A DNA stretch of 64,000 nucleotides from assembly GCA_021819245.1 (NCBI GenBank), contig JAKARI010000001.1, positions 124,001 through 188,000 on the forward strand, read 5' to 3'. The notes beneath the pieces are model-generated. The model saw nothing but the letters and a program-made list of their open reading frames with translations, did not search any database and was not told where the DNA came from. The translations under genes and the position numbers were made by a program. Positions 3,830 through 26,393 of this stretch are shown piece after piece (the stretch's first letter is position 1; each line of letters starts with the position of its first letter). This stretch comes from Pseudomonadota bacterium. Its GTDB lineage: Bacteria > Pseudomonadota > Gammaproteobacteria > Acidiferrobacterales > Acidiferrobacteraceae.

Positions 3830-4512
3830 CAATCGAGTGACACCCGCAAGGCCGCTGAACTCGCCCATGGGGCAAAACTTAAAGCCAGCGCCAAAAACGC
3901 CCCCAGTAAGGATAAGTGGGCCACCGACGCGAAACCTTGGCCCGCTGACGCGGCAACGGCCTCGGCGCCGAATATGAGAATAGGAGTATACAGCGGCAGC
4001 ACCAACAGGGAAACCAGCACGCCCCCGCCGCGCACACCGAGCGTCAAGGCCGCCGGGATCGCGCCAATCAAGGTCAGGGTCGGCGTGCCTAGCAAAAGCG
4101 AGCCCACGAGTGTCCCTATGGCCTTGGTCGGCAACGCCATCTGCACCGCAAGCAGCGGCGACAAAAGCGCAAGCGGCAGGCCCGTCAATACCCAATGGGC
4201 GGCGATCTTGGCAAGCACCATGGCCGACAGGGGATAAGGGCTCATGAGCATCTGCTCGAGGCTGCCATCCTGATAATCACTCGCAAACAGGTGATTGAGC
4301 GACAGGGTGGTCGCCAAAAGCGCCGCCACCCACAACACCCCGGGGGCCACCACCATCAGTTCGCGGCGCTCGGGTCCTATCGCCAAGGGGAACAGGGTCG
4401 TGACGATCACGAAAAACACGAGCGCCGCCATGACCTCGGTGCTGCGCCGCCAAAATACCAGAAGCTCACGCAGGAACACCGCGCGCATGGCGCCCAACAC
4501 CCCTCCCGTCAT
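3829..4512 (-). CDS. ccmB: Haem exporter membrane subunit CcmB
   Basis: Membrane subunit of the CcmABCD ABC-type complex. About 227 residues with six hydrophobic spans and the LRELLVFWRRSTEVMAALVF N-terminal segment typical of CcmB. The ATG at 4512 is chosen because it forms an ATGA overlap with the ccmA stop, matching the junctions throughout this operon; an alternative ATG at 4527 adds five residues. It is followed directly by ccmC. Confidence 0.94.
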   Translation of the reverse strand: MTGGVLGAMRAVFLRELLVFWRRSTEVMAALVFFVIVTTLFPLAIGPERRELMVVAPGVLWVAALLATTLSLNHLFASDYQDGSLEQMLMSPYPLSAMVLAKIAAHWVLTGLPLALLSPLLAVQMALPTKAIGTLVGSLLLGTPTLTLIGAIPAALTLGVRGGGVLVSLLVLPLYTPILIFGAEAVAASAGQGFASVAHLSLLGAFLALALSFAPWASSAALRVSLD

Positions 4513-5153
4513 CGCCGCGACCTGCAATATCGGGTCAGCTCGAAATCGCGGATGCCCGGCAGATCGAAGGCCTGATGCGACACCACCAGCGCCAAGCCAC
4601 CCGCAGCCATATGTTCTCCAATCAAAGACGACAGACTCGCAACCGAGGCCGCATCCAGGGCCGTAAACGGTTCATCCAGTACCCACAAGGGCCGGCGCAG
4701 CACCAACAATCGCGCCAAGGCCAGGCGCCGCTTCTGTCCCTGCGATAAATGGCGCGCCGGCCGGTCGGTCTGAGCGCGCAGACCGACACGCTCCAGGGCC
4801 TCACGCTCACTCAAGCCCGCGTGCCCACGGCGCGTGAATACACGGCCCGCCAGCCGCAGGTTCTCGCCTGCAGTGAGTTCGCCCTGAATTCCATTCAAGT
4901 GCCCGACATAGGCCACTTCGGCGGTAAAGTCCTCGGCCAGATCCGCGATGCGCTCCCCGCGCCAGCGGATCTCTCCACGCACCGGCCGCGACAATCCGCA
5001 CAAGGCGCGCAGAAGCGTGGTCTTGCCGAGCCCGTTGGGGCCCCGTATGTGCATGGCCTCGCCGGCGCGCAGCTCGAGCGACAAGGCCGCAAACAGGGTC
5101 CGGTCCCCGCGCACGCACGATAGCCCTCGCACGGCAAACATGGGGTCACTCAT
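4509..5153 (-). CDS. ccmA: Cytochrome c biogenesis ATP-binding protein CcmA
   Basis: ATPase of the CcmABCD complex; hydrolysis drives release of haem-loaded CcmE. In its 214 residues the Walker A is GPNGLGKTT at 38-46, the ABC signature LSQGQ at 135-139, Walker B WVLDEP at 156-161, and the switch histidine is in VVSHQ. The start overlaps the ccmI stop as ATGA. Here ccmA follows ccmFHI instead of opening the operon. Confidence 0.96.
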   Translation of the reverse strand: MSDPMFAVRGLSCVRGDRTLFAALSLELRAGEAMHIRGPNGLGKTTLLRALCGLSRPVRGEIRWRGERIADLAEDFTAEVAYVGHLNGIQGELTAGENLRLAGRVFTRRGHAGLSEREALERVGLRAQTDRPARHLSQGQKRRLALARLLVLRRPLWVLDEPFTALDAASVASLSSLIGEHMAAGGLALVVSHQAFDLPGIRDFELTRYCRSRR

Positions 5154-19189: not shown

Positions 19190-19876
19190 TTAATGGCCTA
19201 CGGCGGGCGTGCCCGGCCCGGCGCCGCGGTGGGGTGCCGCTAGGTAGCCGGCAATGGCCGCGACCTCGCGGCTGCTTAAGGGATTGGCATACCCTATGGC
19301 CCGCGTCCCCCGCACCCCGGCCTGGATCTCGACGATCAGGTCAGCCGGGCGCTCCTTACGCGCGAGCGCGAAAAGGTCAGGGACGGGACTGCCGGGGCCC
19401 GCCGCAGCATGACAGGTCGCACACAAGCGGCTATAGAGAAAGCGCCCCTCGCGCCAACGCCGCCCGCCGGTGCTAAGCGGCAGCAGGCCGCGAAAGTCCA
19501 TCGGGAATTCCCGCCGTAGGGCGCGCATCTGCCGCCAGACGACCGACATCGCCCCCTGTCTCAGGGCCGCGCGGGCCACCCGGATACGGGCCGCTATCGG
19601 TCCCATGCGGCACCCGGCCCGGACGCAATACGATCGCGCCTCAAAACCCAGTATCCCCAGATCGCTTGTGATGCGCGCCACAAGCCGCGGCGGCGGCTGG
19701 CCGGCTAGCGCCCGATGGGCCTCATGCGCAAGGAGCGCCACCTCCATGCGAAAACGCAGATCACGGTTGGCATGTGCCAGCACCGGCACGAGTAGGGCGG
19801 CAAGCAGCCCCAGGCGGTTTCTGCGCGCACGGCCCCGCGTGCCTAGCCAACGACCACTGCCTGTCGCGCCTGTCAC
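19190..19876 (-). CDS. Secreted c-type cytochrome with one CxxCH motif
   Basis: 228-residue protein with an N-terminal arginine-rich segment and hydrophobic signal sequence (LGLLAALLVPVLAHA). A unique middle region contains SYCVRAGC. The C-terminal ~80 residues form a class I cytochrome c domain with one haem site, CATCH. Where the axial methionine is expected the sequence reads GTRAIGYANPLS, with no methionine, so the sixth ligand is unclear. The start overlaps the preceding small gene as ATGA, linking it to the sulfur operon; it likely moves electrons in the periplasm. Confidence 0.8.
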   Translation of the reverse strand: MTGATGSGRWLGTRGRARRNRLGLLAALLVPVLAHANRDLRFRMEVALLAHEAHRALAGQPPPRLVARITSDLGILGFEARSYCVRAGCRMGPIAARIRVARAALRQGAMSVVWRQMRALRREFPMDFRGLLPLSTGGRRWREGRFLYSRLCATCHAAAGPGSPVPDLFALARKERPADLIVEIQAGVRGTRAIGYANPLSSREVAAIAGYLAAPHRGAGPGTPAVGH

Positions 19877-20067
19877 ACGGTCACGACCACGTCACCTGTC
19901 AAAATGGCATCCAGCACCGCGTCCCACGCGCCCTCGCTTAAGCCCGGGTGGCGCAGATCCTGGCGGGACAGCTGGTGTGCCGAAGGCGCCCGCTCCAAAG
20001 ACACCAAGGCCTCGTTGAGGGTATGCCTGTCGGGAAAAAGATCGGTCTCCAGGACCACGATACGCAT
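19873..20067 (-). CDS. Hypothetical 64-residue protein in the sulfur operon
   Basis: Small soluble protein beginning MRIVVLETDLFPDRHTLNEA and ending in a hydrophobic strand (GDVVVTV). It has no cysteines and no recognised motif. It lies between a DsrE-type gene (21-base gap) and the cytochrome gene (ATGA overlap), so it is co-translated with the sulfur operon. No function can be assigned. Confidence 0.7.
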   Translation of the reverse strand: MRIVVLETDLFPDRHTLNEALVSLERAPSAHQLSRQDLRHPGLSEGAWDAVLDAILTGDVVVTV

Positions 20068-20088
20068 GACGCCTCCCCCTTGATCGCC

Positions 20089-20364
20089 TTACAGTGAAAT
20101 GACGGCCGCGGCACTCACGAGGGCCGCCGCGAGTGCCGCGGTATCGAGATAGGGCAGGCCCTGATCGGCAACCGTGGTCTCCGGTTGCACATCGGCAAGC
20201 TCGAGACTCTCCGCCTGCACCGCGTTTTCCGGGGTGTCGGCGACCGGCCCGCCCATAAAGATCAGACGCACGGCATGACCAAATATCGTAAGCCCCGCGG
20301 CCACGCGCATCGCCTCCGTGTGGTCATGACGACCAAGAACCACCACCGCCTTGGGCGCGCCCAT
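20089..20364 (-). CDS. DsrE/DsrF-like protein without cysteine
   Basis: 91-residue protein with the alpha/beta fold signature of the DsrE/F/TusD family: AVVVLGRHDHTEAMRVAAGL followed by the strand VRLIFMGGPV. Members shuttle persulfide sulfur when they have a conserved cysteine. This copy has no cysteine, so like the non-catalytic partners in TusBCD or DsrEFH it may be structural. The gene three bases upstream is a cysteine-containing relative, a likely partner. Confidence 0.75.
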   Translation of the reverse strand: MGAPKAVVVLGRHDHTEAMRVAAGLTIFGHAVRLIFMGGPVADTPENAVQAESLELADVQPETTVADQGLPYLDTAALAAALVSAAAVISL

Positions 20365-20367
20365 GGG

Positions 20368-20655
20368 CTAAAGGCTCACGACATGCCGCGCATCGGCGGC
20401 CATGGCGCTATTGTCAGTCTGGCTCCCCAGGGCAATCGGGCAGGGTCCCTTCCCATAACGCTCCCACGAATATTCGCAAACCACGGAATCGGGACAGGCG
20501 TGCAAGACCGCCTCGATCTTGGGATCACAGGGGAGTTGCGCGGCGGGCCCGGTAAAAAAGCAGCGGCACGACACCCGGCGCCGTTCACAGGCGCGCAAGA
20601 GCCCGGCGAGCAGAGGTGCCGACTCGGTTCGCGACACCAGAAACAAGACATCCAT
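20368..20655 (-). CDS. DsrE-like cysteine-containing protein
   Basis: 95-residue protein starting MDVLFLVSRTESAPLLAGLL, consistent with the DsrE/DsrF fold. It has six cysteines, including VVCEYSWERYGKGPCPIALG near where sulfur-carrier cysteines of DsrE-type proteins lie. ATG at 20655 has AAGGAGG five bases upstream and shares a base with the preceding stop (TAATG). Family placement rests on fold pattern and context, and which cysteine would carry sulfur is unknown. Confidence 0.7.
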   Translation of the reverse strand: MDVLFLVSRTESAPLLAGLLRACERRRVSCRCFFTGPAAQLPCDPKIEAVLHACPDSVVCEYSWERYGKGPCPIALGSQTDNSAMAADARHVVSL

Positions 20656-21545
20656 TAGCGCCTCCTTGTCATGCGCCATACGAGAGTCATGATGGCAGCG
20701 GCCGCCGACACCGCCGCCAGCGCCTTGTCCGGGGCCGGCAGCCCCGAAGAGGGGTGCGGCCTCAGGATTCGTGCACCGCGCGCGCGTATCCAGTCTTGCC
20801 AACCACCGACGAACACGTGTGCCGGCACCGCCCGCATGCGAAGCCGCGCAAAATAGGCCACCGACTCATAGGGCCCCGCCCCGTAGGCCACCACCGCGGC
20901 CGGTTTGGGCAAGCGTCCTGGAGACAGTGAGGCGCGGCCCCGCCCGAGACCTGCCATCGGCAGGGATTGCGCCCCGGGGATATGCCCGGACTGCTGATAG
21001 CGCAGGCGCGAGCGTCCATCCACGATGCCATACCCGCCCACGCCATGCCGTATGCGTGCGGCGAGTTCGTGGCGCAGCACCACGAGCCTTGTGCGCGGCC
21101 AGGCCGTGTATAGGGCCTCGCGGAATACCCCGCGGGTCGTTCCCGCGCCGGAGGCCTGCGGATGATGGCGAAGCCATGCGCTCACCGGATCGGCAATCAC
21201 ATCGACACGCCTTTGGCCGGCGAGATACAGCATACCGGCCACGAAATCCTCGCGCCGAGCATGGTCACCGACGACGAGCGCGGTTTCGGCTCCCGTCATA
21301 TTCAATGCCCCGAGGAGCCAACGGACGTTGCGCCAGCTCGCCAGCTCGCCGCGCGCCGTCAGAAGCATGCGCGGATTCAGGCATACCGCGCCGGTCACCG
21401 ACTGGCGCTCGCACACGGCGCGGCGTCGCGTATCCACAACGACGCTGTCGGCGGGCAGCGGCCACGGCATGGCCGCACGCGCCGTAAGCGCCCCTGGCGT
21501 GACCGCATGCCGCGCGCCAGACCCCGGCAGCGGTCCGGCATGCAC
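20655..21545 (-). CDS. Tail-anchored tandem rhodanese-fold protein lacking catalytic cysteines
   Basis: 296 residues from GTG 21545. The first rhodanese-like domain contains AVTPGALTARA, DSVVVDTR and ALVVGDHARR; the second contains YGIVDGRSRLRYQQSGHIPGAQ and VVAYGAGPYESVAYFARL. In both, the cysteine of the active loop is glycine, so sulfur transfer by the normal mechanism is unlikely. A hydrophobic span close to the C-terminus (ALAAVSAAAAIMTLVW) would anchor it in the membrane. It begins three bases after the previous stop. It may bind sulfur species or act as a scaffold; this is inference. Confidence 0.75.
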   Translation of the reverse strand: MHAGPLPGSGARHAVTPGALTARAAMPWPLPADSVVVDTRRRAVCERQSVTGAVCLNPRMLLTARGELASWRNVRWLLGALNMTGAETALVVGDHARREDFVAGMLYLAGQRRVDVIADPVSAWLRHHPQASGAGTTRGVFREALYTAWPRTRLVVLRHELAARIRHGVGGYGIVDGRSRLRYQQSGHIPGAQSLPMAGLGRGRASLSPGRLPKPAAVVAYGAGPYESVAYFARLRMRAVPAHVFVGGWQDWIRARGARILRPHPSSGLPAPDKALAAVSAAAAIMTLVWRMTRRR

Positions 21546-21547
21546 CG

Positions 21548-21913
21548 TCAGCAGCCCCCGATCTTGGGCAGGCGCGGCACGAACCCCGCGCCCTGGGCCG
21601 GCGGCGGGTTCTGAATATAGTAATTCACGAGCTCGCGCACCGTCACGGTCCCGTACAGGCCACCCATCGGAATGGGCGCGAACCGCCCCGCGGTCTGCGG
21701 GGTCTCCGAGCGCTTGATCAACTCGGGCGACACCGAGGCCGCGCGCATCAGAAGCGCCATCCCGACCACCACGAGGGCAACGCATGAGCCGCAGTAGAGC
21801 AGGATTTGGCTGGGTGTCATTGCCCCGCTGCCGGTATCCCGGGCCTGCGGCTGAGGCACCGGGCAGCCGGCATCCGGCAAGGTCACGCCATGCAATACCT
21901 CTTTTATTGTCAT
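21548..21913 (-). CDS. Single-span membrane protein with YY-N motif, sulfur operon
   Basis: 121 residues: a cytosolic N-terminus with one cysteine, one membrane span (about 36-57, ILLYCGSCVALVVVGMALLM), then a domain with GGLYGTVTVRELVNYYIQN and a terminal cysteine (KIGGC). ATG at 21913 has GGGAGG five bases upstream. The VRELVNYYIQN stretch resembles VDRLAQYYKGN in the 89-residue protein two genes upstream, so the two look related. No known family was recognised. Confidence 0.75.
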   Translation of the reverse strand: MTIKEVLHGVTLPDAGCPVPQPQARDTGSGAMTPSQILLYCGSCVALVVVGMALLMRAASVSPELIKRSETPQTAGRFAPIPMGGLYGTVTVRELVNYYIQNPPPAQGAGFVPRLPKIGGC

Positions 21914-21928
21914 AAGGCCTCCCGACCC

Positions 21929-22021
21929 CTAGAACACATCCGTCGTCAGGGCAATGAAGAGCACATACATCATAACGACGAACATGACGAGTTGCGCGAT
22001 CGTTGGCACATTGAAATGCAT
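21929..22021 (-). CDS. 30-residue single-span membrane peptide
   Basis: ATG at 22021 follows TAGGAGG closely and the frame ends at TAG 21931-21929. The predicted peptide starts MHFNVPTIAQLV, continues as one hydrophobic helix with MYVLFIALT and ends TTDVF. It fills an otherwise unexplained gap between two genes of the sulfur operon. Small peptides of this type often stabilise membrane complexes; here that is inference. The ribosome site, one clean span and operon position support it as real. Confidence 0.65.
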   Translation of the reverse strand: MHFNVPTIAQLVMFVVMMYVLFIALTTDVF

Positions 22022-22029
22022 AGATCCTC

Positions 22030-22299
22030 CTAATGTCCGCCATTCTTCGAAGCCGGGACCTTTTCCACGGCATAGACGCCGGCAGAGACATTGCCCTTAT
22101 AGTATTGGGCGAGCCGATCCACGTTGAGCGGCTTGCCATTGACCGGGTCGATGACAGGCGGCGTGAAGTATGCGACCCCGTCGCGCGTCCGATGCAGATA
22201 GGCTGGGGGCGTAGCAAGAATGTATATGAAGGTGCCGATGGTCATGACACCAGCCAGCAACGCCAGCGCCAGCATCTGTTTTTGACCGGCCGGAAGCAT
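22030..22299 (-). CDS. Single-span membrane protein with YY-N motif, shorter copy
   Basis: 89 residues, one N-terminal membrane span (about 9-29), then probably a periplasmic domain with AYFTPPVIDPVNGKPLNVDR and LAQYYKGN. The pattern of span, about 30 residues, then V-x-x-L-x-x-YY-x-x-N is shared with the 121-residue protein nearby. GGGAGG precedes the ATG. It lies 12 bases after tusA. It is not recognised as a known family. Confidence 0.75.
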   Translation of the reverse strand: MLPAGQKQMLALALLAGVMTIGTFIYILATPPAYLHRTRDGVAYFTPPVIDPVNGKPLNVDRLAQYYKGNVSAGVYAVEKVPASKNGGH

Positions 22300-22311
22300 G
22301 GCGCGCCCTCC

Positions 22312-22626
22312 CTAGTTCTTGCACACGAAGACGCGCCAGTAACGATCCGCCTTGACGGTCGCCAGGTGCGTGCCGTTGACCGCCGCCATCACCGTCGGCA
22401 AGGCCTCCATGGATGTCGGATTATCCACCCTAACCTCTATGACGGCCCCGGATATGGCCTCGTTCAAGGCCTTTTTGGTCATAAGCTGCGGGCGCGGGCA
22501 GGAATCTCCCAAGACATCCACTATGCGGCTTATGGTGTAGGTGCACCCGTCCGGCAAGGTCACCTGCGCGATCGGCTCGGCCGGTGCGGCCGTGGCCGGT
22601 GCGGCTTTACGGTTGAATAGTCCCAT
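22312..22626 (-). CDS. tusA: TusA-family sulfur carrier with N-terminal extension
   Basis: 104 residues. The sulfur-binding motif is DSCPRPQLMTKKAL, matching the CPxP site of TusA proteins that carry persulfide sulfur on the cysteine. The protein has an Ala/Pro-rich N-terminal tail of about 20 residues and an altered C-terminal half ending in CKN. It follows two YeeE/YedE genes by five bases; TusA next to YeeE/YedE is the arrangement of the TsuA-TsuB thiosulfate uptake system and of PmpAB operons. Confidence 0.88.
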   Translation of the reverse strand: MGLFNRKAAPATAAPAEPIAQVTLPDGCTYTISRIVDVLGDSCPRPQLMTKKALNEAISGAVIEVRVDNPTSMEALPTVMAAVNGTHLATVKADRYWRVFVCKN

Positions 22627-22630
22627 GACA

Positions 22631-23335
22631 TCACTCTCCTAAGGTGGGTAAGGCGGCAGACACATTTGCGTTGCCGTCAGTGGACTTGGCGAGCACCGGC
22701 GCTGCACTCGTCAAAGAGGCGCCTTGCACCGGCTCGCCCTTGCCTTCGGCCGCAAGGGTCGACCGCTCGCGCCTCAGAATCCGCCGGTACAGGGCATAGA
22801 GGGCAGCCGTCTGAATGAGGCCGAAGACGATCGCCGGAATGCCGGTGTCACGCTGCAAGGTCAGGGCATCGGCCCAGCCAAACTGCAGGCCCGCGGCATT
22901 GGAGTGCCCGGTCATCGTCTGCCCGGCAAGCGGCCAGTACGAGAAGGACCACATGAGCGACGATAAAAATAGGCCCACGATGAGAAAGAGCAGGGCCCAT
23001 AAGGCGCCAATGTTGCCCTCGCCGGTCTTGACCCATGATGACACCGTACAGGCCCCGGCAAACACCATGCCGATGCCAAAGAGAAACAGCCCTATGAACT
23101 GGTTGATCCCGACATCAAAGCGCATGGGATTGCCATTGCCGAAACTGATCATGGCGGTAAATCCCACGGTCAGGATCATCATCGCCACCAGCAAGGCCTT
23201 GGTATTGCGGTAGCTCTTAAAGAGCATGGCGTCGCGCAAAGCCGCCGTGTTGCACCAACGTGACCTTTGCACGAGCACCCCGACGGTGCTTCCGAAAATG
23301 AAGGCTGCCAAGCATTGGCCGTCTACGGTAATCAT
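22631..23335 (-). CDS. YeeE/YedE family transporter, second half protein
   Basis: 234-residue membrane protein with five or six spans and a disordered C-terminal tail. Family features: VGVLVQRSRWCNTAALRD near the start and GIGMVFAGACTVSSW, which hold the cysteines that line the pathway in the thiosulfate channel TsuA. The partner half is encoded three bases upstream, so the transporter is split into two genes, as in PmpA/PmpB. The likely substrate is thiosulfate or another sulfur compound. Confidence 0.9.
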   Translation of the reverse strand: MITVDGQCLAAFIFGSTVGVLVQRSRWCNTAALRDAMLFKSYRNTKALLVAMMILTVGFTAMISFGNGNPMRFDVGINQFIGLFLFGIGMVFAGACTVSSWVKTGEGNIGALWALLFLIVGLFLSSLMWSFSYWPLAGQTMTGHSNAAGLQFGWADALTLQRDTGIPAIVFGLIQTAALYALYRRILRRERSTLAAEGKGEPVQGASLTSAAPVLAKSTDGNANVSAALPTLGE

Positions 23336-23338
23336 TGA

Positions 23339-23833
23339 TCAGGCCTCCAGGATTTTCTTGTATACCCAGGTTCCGACCCACGCGCCGATCACGAGGCCGC
23401 TCACCGCCAAGTAACCGCCGAGATTCATCTCCGGCGTGAGGCCAAGAAACGTACTGACGTTGCAGACAAAAGACAGGCGAATACCGATACCCATGAGCAG
23501 GCCGCCGATGGTGATCATCACCCACTCCGACAGATGCTTTGGGACACGCCAGTAAAACTCCTTGCTCAAGATCGCGCTGACAAGGGCGCCAAACCCCATG
23601 CCTAGGCTTATGTATATCTTCCAATAGGCCCACGTCGGCTTGAATACCATGCGCCAGAACGGGATGCGATTCATCTCCTTGGCGCCGACCAGGGCCTTCA
23701 CAAACAGCCCTGCGATCATCGTCTCGCCACCCCCTACGGTCCACGCACCGACGATCTGAAAGAGAAAGATGTCGAATACCGCGATGATCGCCAACGCGAC
23801 TATGGGATCCAGAGATTTCTTGAAAAACTCCAC
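23339..23833 (-). CDS. YeeE/YedE family transporter, first half protein
   Basis: 164 residues from the GTG at 23833 (start VEFFKKSLDPIVALAI), five spans. The conserved cysteine motif is GIGIRLSFVCNVSTFLGL. GTG 23833 is preceded by AAAGGGGGGGG; the frame is open further upstream without family similarity. It opens the run of tightly spaced sulfur genes that continues to the cytochrome, so its promoter should lie in the 671-base gap upstream. Confidence 0.88.
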   Translation of the reverse strand: MEFFKKSLDPIVALAIIAVFDIFLFQIVGAWTVGGGETMIAGLFVKALVGAKEMNRIPFWRMVFKPTWAYWKIYISLGMGFGALVSAILSKEFYWRVPKHLSEWVMITIGGLLMGIGIRLSFVCNVSTFLGLTPEMNLGGYLAVSGLVIGAWVGTWVYKKILEA

Positions 23834-24504
23834 GGTACCACCCCCCCCTTTAAGCGTTTGGCCCTGTAGCGGCGCAAGCCCCCCATCTGCCGTATCAAAA
23901 AACGGCACACCGCAAAGGCCCTTGCGCGTCGCCCAACCGAATGGCCCGCGACCTCCTCGAGACGGCCGCCTGGGCTTCCTGTCATCGACCATGAGCAAAA
24001 CTCAGGCCAGGGAGTCAACCTGGGGATTTCGCGGGCCTTTTCCCGGACACGACGGGACTGGCATCACCATCTTGGGAGCCTTCATCACCAGGATGGTGAT
24101 GTCGAAAAAGGGCCGGCACGCGCCCCGCCCTGGCACCGCCGCCGGCCGCACGCCGGCGGACATAAGAAGGCCCCACGGACACACCGGATCCGACGGGCGG
24201 CGCAAAGCCCTCCCTGACAGAGGATCGACAGAGGATCGGTGACAATCGCGGGCCCAAGGGCCTTGGAGAATCGGCCGGAGGCCGGTTGTGGCCTTGTGCC
24301 GGCCCCTAGGAGCGCGCCAGACCCTGGGCCTACCGGTCGCTGACGGGCGCCCCGTACCGGGGGGCTAAAAAACGCGGCGCGCCCCCGATAGCACAGCCAT
24401 CACACCAGACCACGCCACACCCTGATGCGCCACGGGGCCGCCCTCGAAGGCCTTGCCGCCCCGAAACCCTAGGCCCCGGGGCCCCATACACCCTAAGGAT
24501 CGCC
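23834..24504. other. 671-base intergenic region between sulfur genes
   Basis: No convincing gene is seen on either strand. Features noted: a perfect inverted repeat CATCACCA/TGGTGATG with a three-base loop at 24083-24101, with another CATCACCA at 24062-24069; a TGCCGT...ACGGCA hairpin around 23887-23907; a tandem GACAGAGGATC repeat near 24225-24237; and GGCCCCGGGGCC near 24472. The region must contain the promoter of the split YeeE/YedE operon. Confidence 0.5.
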
Positions 24505-24840
24505 TCAACCAGTACTCCAGCCGCGCGGCCGGCGCATGCCCGCCACCTTGCAGGCCTGTTTGACATAGCCATAGGGGAATAGCTCGAACAGGCGGGCGCG
24601 GGCCTTGGCGCCCATCCCCTGATCGGCGAGGTGGCGGATCGCGAAACGGACATCCGGAGCCACCTGGCGCTCCTCGAAAAACCCGCGCATGAACCGAATC
24701 ACCACCCAATGGTCGTCTTCCAGAACCAGGCCCTCGGACTGCGCCAGGGCCAGGGCCACGGATTCGTTCCAGTCCCCAGGGTCGACCAAATAGCCTTCCG
24801 CATCGACGGCGACACGCGCGCCTTTCACTATGATCTCCAT
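24505..24840 (-). CDS. DsrC/TusE-family sulfur protein with C-terminal Cys replaced by Trp
   Basis: 111 residues starting MEIIVKGARVAV. The family core is clear: DAEGYLVDPGDWNESVALAL, EDDHWVVIRFMRGFFEE, and a C-terminal arm with QACKVAGMRRPRGW. DsrC has two arm cysteines, TusE only the last. Here the inner cysteine (QAC) is present, but the normally invariant penultimate one is Trp, followed by STG. Persulfide chemistry would therefore differ. ATG at 24840 is chosen for family length and a purine-rich ribosome site. Confidence 0.85.
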   Translation of the reverse strand: MEIIVKGARVAVDAEGYLVDPGDWNESVALALAQSEGLVLEDDHWVVIRFMRGFFEERQVAPDVRFAIRHLADQGMGAKARARLFELFPYGYVKQACKVAGMRRPRGWSTG

Positions 24841-25066
24841 ACCCTCCCCCTCGCCATCGGTTGCCATGACGCCAAGGCCCTTCTTTAAGGCTCGCAATCG
24901 ACCACCCTGCGCACCCGTAAGGCCCGTTTACGCGGCACTCTTCCAGATTCGGGCCGGGACTAGCCTTGATGGCGGTCAAGCCGCCTACGCCTTGCCGTCC
25001 GAGGGCCGCTGCGGCAAGATGACAAAGGCGCATCCCCCTTATGCGCCACGCAGATCGAGGCCGCGG

Positions 25067-25476: not shown

Positions 25477-25598
25477 GGGCACGCGGCCTTATGGCCTGTC
25501 CCATGAAGGGGCATAGGAAGATATGCGGTACCGACACCATGACGGTGCAACTCCTCCCGTGCCCGGATATCGTGATACACACGCAATCGGGGGAGAAT

Positions 25599-26393
25599 AT
25601 GTGGAAAACCATCCAGCATCTGCAGACGGCGGACGCCCCGGACATCATCCCGCACAACGTGCTCGCGGATTCTTACGATCGATGCCGCATGCTCGACGTG
25701 TGCGAGACCCAAAGGCGCATTGAAGACGCCCTGAGCGAATGGGAAACCCGGACTTTCCTGCAGCACAATGGCAGGCTCGTAAGCTTTGGGAATCAGGTCG
25801 TCAAGGAATACATGGGTGACATCAAGGAGGCGAGCGACCTTTTCATACTTACGGACGGCGAAGGACGCGTACTGGGCCTATGGTCACGCCTGGAGATCGT
25901 ATCGGCGGCTCATGATATCGGTCTTCGCCCCGGGGCATCGCTCGCCGAGAATAGCGCCGGGACCAACGCGGTGGCGCTCGCATTGGCAATGAGAGACCCG
26001 GTCATTCTCAGGGGCGAGGAACATTTGTGCCGCATATTTCACGACTGGACCTGCGTGGCGGCACCCGTCATAAACACGGACGGAGACCTCGTGGGATGCC
26101 TCGACATTTCTGCGCCCAAGGGTCCGGTCTATGAAAAATTGGCCTTGGCACGATCGATCGCGCGGGAACTCGGGCGCCTCATTGGCAGCAAAAAATCGTT
26201 TGGCGGAGTCACGATCCGTCAGCGCGAGGTGCTTGCGCTCTTTTCCCAGGGGGTTAGCTATAAGGGGATCGGCAACATGCTCGGCATATCGATCAAGACC
26301 GTGGAGGAGCATCTCGACGCCGTGCGTATCAAGATGGGCATGGACACGCGGCGGGCCTGCATCAAAAAAGCCATTGAGATGGGCATCCTCTAG
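25599..26393 (+). CDS. GAF-domain LuxR-type transcriptional regulator
   Basis: About 264 residues. The N-terminal half resembles the sensor region of AcoR/DhaR-type activators: a helix with SYDRCR and a GAF domain with LAENSAGTNAVALAL, EEHLCRIFHDWTCVAAPV and GDLVGCLDIS. Instead of a sigma54 ATPase, the C-terminus is a LuxR/GerE helix-turn-helix (REVLALFSQGVSYKGIGNML, then ISIKTVEEHLDAVRIKMG). ATG at 25599 has GGGGGAG upstream; starts at 25491, 25503 and 25539 are also in frame. The signal and targets are unknown. Confidence 0.85.
   Translation: MWKTIQHLQTADAPDIIPHNVLADSYDRCRMLDVCETQRRIEDALSEWETRTFLQHNGRLVSFGNQVVKEYMGDIKEASDLFILTDGEGRVLGLWSRLEIVSAAHDIGLRPGASLAENSAGTNAVALALAMRDPVILRGEEHLCRIFHDWTCVAAPVINTDGDLVGCLDISAPKGPVYEKLALARSIARELGRLIGSKKSFGGVTIRQREVLALFSQGVSYKGIGNMLGISIKTVEEHLDAVRIKMGMDTRRACIKKAIEMGIL

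Follow-up and report, generated by a model that had tools for sequence, protein, structure and literature searches.

Sulfane sulfur has to travel from the periplasm or from globules to the Dsr or sHdr enzymes in the cytoplasm by a route that PMC11582611 describes as unknown, and an operon in the genome of a bacterium of the Acidiferrobacteraceae is a candidate for encoding it. The operon lies in the 64,000-nt stretch of contig JAKARI010000001.1 analysed here (the window) and brings together a split YeeE/YedE channel (Yb, Ya), a TusA-type carrier, three small membrane proteins (A, p, B), a rhodanese-fold protein (R1), a trio of small proteins (E, F, H) and a cytochrome c (C). We suggest, with a probability of about 0.5, that the operon encodes a redox-assisted trans-membrane conduit in which periplasmic sulfane sulfur would pass through the channel to TusA and on to cytoplasmic sulfur oxidation. 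From the observed gene content and order, the conserved cysteines, the DsrE fold of E, the co-occurrence with dsrA and a sigma-54-type promoter-like site we infer the transport, its substrate and direction, the electron flow and the contacts between the parts.

Results

The operon consists of 11 open reading frames (ORFs) that form a head-to-tail series on the minus strand (23833 to 19190) and are transcribed in the order Yb, Ya, TusA (T), A, p, B, R1, E, F, H, C (Table 1). A previous reading of the window from its letters and ORFs alone, here called the sequence-only reading, had proposed a tight unit of eleven small genes at 19190-23833; all of these ORFs were confirmed at this place with intergenic gaps of approximately -4 to 21 nt, and Shine-Dalgarno-like sequences lie 5' of most starts.

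Twelve other genomes of the family have all eleven genes in identical order, as does a second family of the order. When 84,980 species genomes were scanned with the F protein as the sole query, 127 relatives were returned, and the best 80 of these loci were read, each part being traced through iterated hidden Markov models. These 80 loci span alpha-, beta- and gammaproteobacteria as well as SAR324, and the contiguous run Yb-Ya-T-A-p-B-R1-E-F-H is complete in 66 of them, followed next by R2, a second rhodanese, in 52 and by the cytochrome in 63. The gene order that the sequence-only reading had suggested looking for in sulfur oxidisers therefore recurs in several classes, and the small membrane proteins, on whose conservation beside yedE-tusA it had made the idea of a system depend, are conserved across several classes as well. 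The remaining 14 loci comprise 11 that are cut by contig ends, one without R1 (L127) and two (L107 and L123) that contain a core only, i.e. YedE, TusA and E-F-H are present and A, p, B, R and C are absent; in L107 YedE is a single full-length chain, and the L123 contig starts inside the YedE gene. Record titles of carriers include Thiobacillus, Sulfuriferula, Sulfuritalea, Sedimenticola, Thiorhodococcus, Maritimibacter, Sinisalibacter, Magnetovibrio and SAR324. In most other lineages identity to the window proteins is only approximately 31-55% for E and 24-42% for B, and the order has thus persisted while the sequences diverged strongly. Homologues of A were found in 18/57 genomes of the order and in 11/369 of the class. 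The arrangement is far beyond chance and is not accidental, and the ancestral cluster appears to have consisted of twelve genes, with the window lineage lacking R2 at this place.

Table 1. Positions of the operon genes and of the upstream promoter-like site in the window
Feature	Positions	Strand	Evidence
Sigma-54-type (-24/-12) promoter-like site TGGCCTGAGTTTTGCT	23994..24009	-	Upstream of Yb; motif match
Yb, YeeE/YedE channel C-half, 164 aa, GTG start	23339..23833	-	Pfam Sulf_transp 171-310
Ya, YeeE/YedE channel N-half, 234 aa	22631..23335	-	Pfam Sulf_transp 1-157
T, TusA-type sulfur carrier, 104 aa	22312..22626	-	Pfam TusA 5.7e-15
A, single-span membrane protein, extracytoplasmic-type tail, Cys-free, 89 aa	22030..22299	-	No Pfam family
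p, single-span membrane peptide, 30 aa	21929..22021	-	Positional conservation
B, single-span membrane protein ending ...LPKIGGC, 121 aa	21548..21913	-	C-terminal Gly-Cys conservation
R1, tandem rhodanese-fold protein, C-terminal anchor, GTG start	20655..21545	-	Pfam Rhodanese 7e-10
E, DsrE-fold protein, Cys60, 95 aa	20368..20655	-	AlphaFold2 model and fold match
F, Cys-free DsrE/F-like protein, 91 aa	20089..20364	-	Weak Pfam DsrE similarity; position after E
H, alpha/beta protein at the DsrH position, 64 aa	19873..20067	-	AlphaFold2 model; trio with E and F
C, secreted mono-haem cytochrome c (CATCH), 228 aa	19190..19876	-	Pfam Cytochrome_CBB3 2.4e-7

The genomes that carry the cluster point to cytoplasmic sulfur oxidation. 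The dsrA gene is present in 47 of 50 carrier genomes (43 above the curated cut-off) and canonical DsrE/TusD of DsrEFH in 43 of the 50. Among 369 genomes sampled evenly across the class, dsrA was found in 118 and A in 11; nine of the 11 A carriers have dsrA (Fisher p ~0.0008), and this sample and the 50 carrier genomes overlap in some genomes and lineages. In the Acidiferrobacter-like window genome (2.25 Mb, 91% complete) searches for dsrA and canonical DsrE found neither, and this genome has sHdr-type genes together with CCG-domain, 4Fe-4S and lipoate-ligase proteins. Similarly, the 100%-complete genome G317 lacks dsrA and combines the twelve-gene cluster with a set of sHdr-like genes that includes one for a GcvH-like lipoate-binding protein (LbpA). 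Because these two genomes without dsrA have sHdr-type genes, the module goes with cytoplasmic sulfur oxidation generally and not with Dsr alone.

Among the window proteins, Pfam supports both channel halves, TusA, one rhodanese domain and the cytochrome, and no family was matched in the scan of A, B and the 64-residue H. The stretches 22634-23335 in Ya and 23342-23833 in Yb match the N- and C-halves of Sulf_transp separately, in agreement with the two half channels of the sequence-only reading. In the NCBIfam alignment coordinates, Cys28 and Cys96 of Ya and Cys124 of Yb align with Cys22, Cys91 and Cys293 of TsuA, two of which are essential in TsuA (PMC11582611); the three are conserved at 99-100%, and an extra cysteine of Ya, Cys8, is kept in 94% of homologues. 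The active Cys43 of TusA is invariant (100%, n=87). Against the TsuA models NF052577 and NF041049, Ya and Yb both score under the cut-offs (59 and 55 bits vs 400; 60 and 26 bits vs 645), and the YeeE relatives found in a plasmid search were distant only. A role in selenium transport, raised by a YedE/FdhT match, was set aside given a score far under the cut-off and the link to dsrA.

The channel could instead serve thiosulfate uptake and cleavage as in TsuA/TsuB, i.e. the channel would import thiosulfate, TusA would cleave it to a persulfide and sulfite, and the periplasmic proteins would merely deliver or capture thiosulfate. Both halves match the TsuA/YeeE and YedE models of the family with the three TsuA cysteines kept, tusA adjoins the channel genes, and the PhnD-like binding protein and sensor kinase beside many copies (see below) could detect an oxyanion. 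However, the scores are far under the TsuA equivalog cut-offs, plain import needs no cytochrome c, no two rhodaneses and no carrier with a cysteine tail, and the related Hyphomicrobium transporter SoxT1A is unable to import thiosulfate (PMC11582611). We regard thiosulfate uptake as doubtful.

The 30-residue peptide p is present at the same place in 90/98 loci. B, which had been described as the second of two related single-span proteins, is indeed a membrane protein, and this description is corrected by an invariant C-terminal cysteine: Gly-Cys forms the extreme C-terminus in 92/92 homologues (GGC in 80, QGC in nine, EGC in two and AGC in one). This C-terminus is like the sulfur arm of SoxY, to which we compare it by analogy; a Pfam scan of 44 B members gave no family and no SoxY match. 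In L016 (6491-7985; genome G001, near-complete) a short partial tandem duplication at the B-R1 junction breaks the B frame and is either an assembly error or real. In the gammaproteobacterial core-only locus L107 two tiny single-span proteins (63 and 87 aa) are encoded at 4065-4549 beside full-length yedE and tusA; they have no sequence match to A, p or B, and other YedE clusters may have small membrane partners too.

R1 had been read as a tandem rhodanese without catalytic cysteines. The rhodanese loops lack cysteine as claimed, and two other cysteines (Cys45 and Cys55 in the window) are nevertheless invariant in 86/86 proteins. Most R1 homologues start with a signal peptide and many carry a C-terminal membrane segment with positive charges behind it, and R1 therefore probably faces the periplasm. 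R2 is a secreted rhodanese with an invariant FCN-type catalytic cysteine (100%); it is absent from the window cluster, and its relatives encoded elsewhere in the window genome are distant only (37% and 34% identity). An ORF that overlaps the R2 gene recurs on the opposite strand downstream of the cluster; this ORF is probably spurious. In the cytochrome both cysteines of the haem motif are present in 99% of homologues (n=88).

E, F and H form a conserved trio, F and H following E in every complete locus and likewise in L107 and L123 near YedE and TusA. The assignment of E as a cysteine-bearing DsrE-type protein in the sequence-only reading is supported by its AlphaFold2 model, which has a predicted local distance difference test score (pLDDT) of 96.6 and whose best fold match is Allochromatium vinosum DsrE (2hy5_A; Z 12.4, root-mean-square deviation 1.9, 95/95 residues), followed by Escherichia coli YchN and TusD; Cys60 is invariant (100%, n=95). 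When the trio was searched by profile against PDB sequences nothing was found, hhalign comparisons with canonical DsrE/F/H yielded no match of significance, and E is therefore placed as DsrE by fold comparison only. Pfam DsrE matches 13/46 E members and 3/46 F members, in both cases with weak E-values. F, likewise taken for a DsrE-type protein free of cysteine, has no conserved cysteine as stated, and its DsrE assignment comes from this slight Pfam similarity together with its position. The 64-residue H, listed as an unknown, still has no family and is now a member of the trio: its model (pLDDT 92) is a beta-alpha-beta-alpha-beta fold, it has no conserved cysteine, and it gave no profile match to type I DsrH. 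In the fold search for H 2hy5_A appeared at only Z 4.6 amid unrelated folds and canonical DsrH was not specifically recovered.

Upstream of Yb we searched for the sigma-54 consensus TGGCAC-N5-TTGCW. A site with at most one mismatch was found in 46/86 loci, which include genomes fetched twice or close relatives, compared to 0.6% of base-shuffled upstream regions. The window site at 23994-24009 has two mismatches and the corresponding sites in congeners, among which L051 is an Acidiferrobacter sp. record, have one. At 15 loci a sigma-54 activator adjoins the cluster, most of them with a HAMP histidine kinase and a PhnD-type periplasmic binding protein, and 13 of these 15 have a sigma-54-type site with at most one mismatch; L071 (495-1460 and neighbours) provides an example of this set, which is a possible sensor of a sulfur compound. 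Instead of these genes, a divergent ribbon-helix-helix gene is found at 12 loci, most of them from alphaproteobacteria, and the site is missing from 10 of the 12. The combination of the sigma-54-type site with an adjacent sensor and binding protein is consistent with induction by an external sulfur compound.

The regulatory genes would also suit a sulfur-sensing module like SoxT1B, for which there is precedent (PMC11582611) and in which a small sulfur signal would be passed to cytoplasmic regulators rather than to energy metabolism, the activator and kinase being neighbours at approximately 15 loci and the ribbon-helix-helix gene at 12. However, twelve genes including a cytochrome and the E-F-H trio exceed what signalling needs, the regulators are not conserved with the cluster, and the link to dsrA is strong. 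Sensing as the main function is improbable.

Two further genes lie upstream of the operon in the window. A DsrC/TusE-family protein (24508-24897, minus strand; Pfam DsrC 1.4e-30) is encoded just upstream; its C-terminus is ...QACKVAGMRRPRGWSTG and the usual penultimate cysteine is absent. A LuxR-type regulator gene follows at 25491-26393 on the plus strand, and a relative lies upstream in six Acidiferrobacter-like loci.

Discussion

The core of yedE, tusA and dsrE with two genes for conserved hypothetical proteins corresponds in content and order to the published YTD cluster, or yeeE-tusA-dsrEFH type II (PMC8780430, PMC9751629, PMC13047784, PMC13293266). The two arrangements share a YedE-family channel, TusA, a cysteine-bearing DsrE-fold protein and two small family-less proteins in the same relative order. 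In contrast to the published cluster, here (i) the channel is split into two genes in reverse order, (ii) A, p, B and R1 are inserted between TusA and E, and (iii) R2 and the cytochrome c follow H. By position F and H are candidate counterparts of Chp1/Chp2 of YTD, and Cys60 of E is a candidate counterpart of the single conserved functional cysteine of the published type II DsrE (Cys67 in cable bacteria). The hosts differ as well: the carriers found here belong to Pseudomonadota and SAR324 and have dsrA, in most cases together with canonical DsrEFH; the published type II clusters come mainly from Desulfobacterota and Nitrospirota with reductive DsrAB. In the passages covered, the type II survey places the cluster mainly alongside reductive DsrAB and mentions a Pseudomonadota fraction, and of the phyla surveyed in PMC12998232 Desulfobacterota and Nitrospirota are the only ones for which a complete YTD cluster is reported; in these same passages A, p, B, R1, R2 and C go unmentioned. 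In searching the literature on sulfur oxidisers for the accessory genes, with supplementary files, subscription papers and preprints outside our reach, we found no description. The sequence-only reading did not know the combination as a described system; this stands for the accessory genes A, p, B, R1, R2 and C, i.e. about half of the parts are apparently undescribed, and does not stand for the core.

A module for sulfur disproportionation or sulfide export, with flow outward or both ways, was first proposed for YTD, and its core is up-regulated during thiosulfate disproportionation in Desulfolithobacter (PMC9751629). The hosts found here are sulfur-oxidising lineages with canonical DsrEFH, and a later study argues against a specific role in disproportionation (PMC13293266); we consider such a function for the present cluster very unlikely. 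Discussed as a marker of sulfate reducers and disproportionators, the YTD core thus also occurs in other bacteria, beside canonical DsrEFH, and because it occurs in sulfur oxidisers, the presence of YTD alone is no sign of disproportionation.

Other known systems resemble individual parts. As in TsuA-TsuB (YeeE-YeeD), both halves align with TsuA, the three cysteines are kept and a TusA-family protein is adjacent; the differences are the two polypeptides, the low scores against the TsuA models and many more partner genes. PmpB and PmpA are also N- and C-halves of a YeeE protein, each of approximately 130 aa with one cysteine, compared to 234 aa (Cys8/28/96) in Ya and 164 aa (Cys124) in Yb. SoxT resembles the proposed conduit in importing sulfur for cytoplasmic oxidation and differs in being one chain of 330-350 aa; this import has been demonstrated in Hyphomicrobium, where an unexplained short single-span protein is encoded beside soxT1A (PMC11582611). 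SoxY of SoxYZ is a periplasmic carrier with a sulfur-binding cysteine in a C-terminal Gly-Gly-Cys arm, which is the role predicted for B as well; B differs in being membrane-anchored, in ending at the cysteine itself (no GGCGG) and in being without a SoxY domain or SoxZ partner. Sulfur transfer from TusA via type II DsrE to DsrC has been shown in vitro (PMC13293266).

Combining these data, we suggest the following scheme for the conduit: (i) the rhodanese-fold protein R1, joined in most lineages by the catalytic R2, would mobilise sulfane sulfur in the periplasm; (ii) anchored B would hold the sulfur on its periplasmic C-terminal Gly-Cys arm in a SoxY-like manner, with the rhodaneses loading or unloading B; (iii) the cytochrome c would take up electrons when a reduced sulfur species is oxidatively joined to the thiol; (iv) A, p and B would be grouped around the split channel of Ya and Yb, the three channel cysteines would hand sulfur species across the membrane and TusA would receive them inside; and (v) E-F-H, as a putative edition of type II DsrEFH, would relay sulfur onward from TusA to an acceptor, which may be DsrC with reverse Dsr in most hosts and sHdr in hosts without Dsr such as the window genome. 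In the Sox system, SoxAX carries out the oxidative joining for SoxY that corresponds to step (iii). The sequence-only reading had likewise suggested that a sulfur compound could be imported, handed to TusA/DsrE at the membrane and coupled to electron removal in the periplasm, and its idea of a relay is partly supported here.

Several observations weigh against this scheme. Most carriers already have canonical DsrEFH, and E-F-H accordingly seems redundant or would work with a different partner. G014 (L025), listed as 99% complete, has the whole cluster, and no dsrA, no canonical DsrE and no orthologue of the sHdr HdrB2 of its relatives was found in it. The resemblance between the C-termini of B and SoxY amounts to three residues (GGC). 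Finally, R1 of the window shows no clear signal peptide.

The cluster is a compact and widely conserved candidate for the path by which sulfane sulfur reaches the cytoplasmic enzymes. Its carriers are related to cultured lineages, i.e. Thiobacillus, Sulfuriferula, Sedimenticola, Thiorhodococcus and Magnetovibrio, and the cysteines named here are open to mutation. We put forward, tentatively, that this twelve-gene cluster, as a previously unrecognised sigma-54-controlled machine with a tethered sulfur carrier ending in cysteine and its own cytochrome, could be the long-sought route for sulfur from the periplasm to the cytoplasm in many Dsr and sHdr oxidisers.

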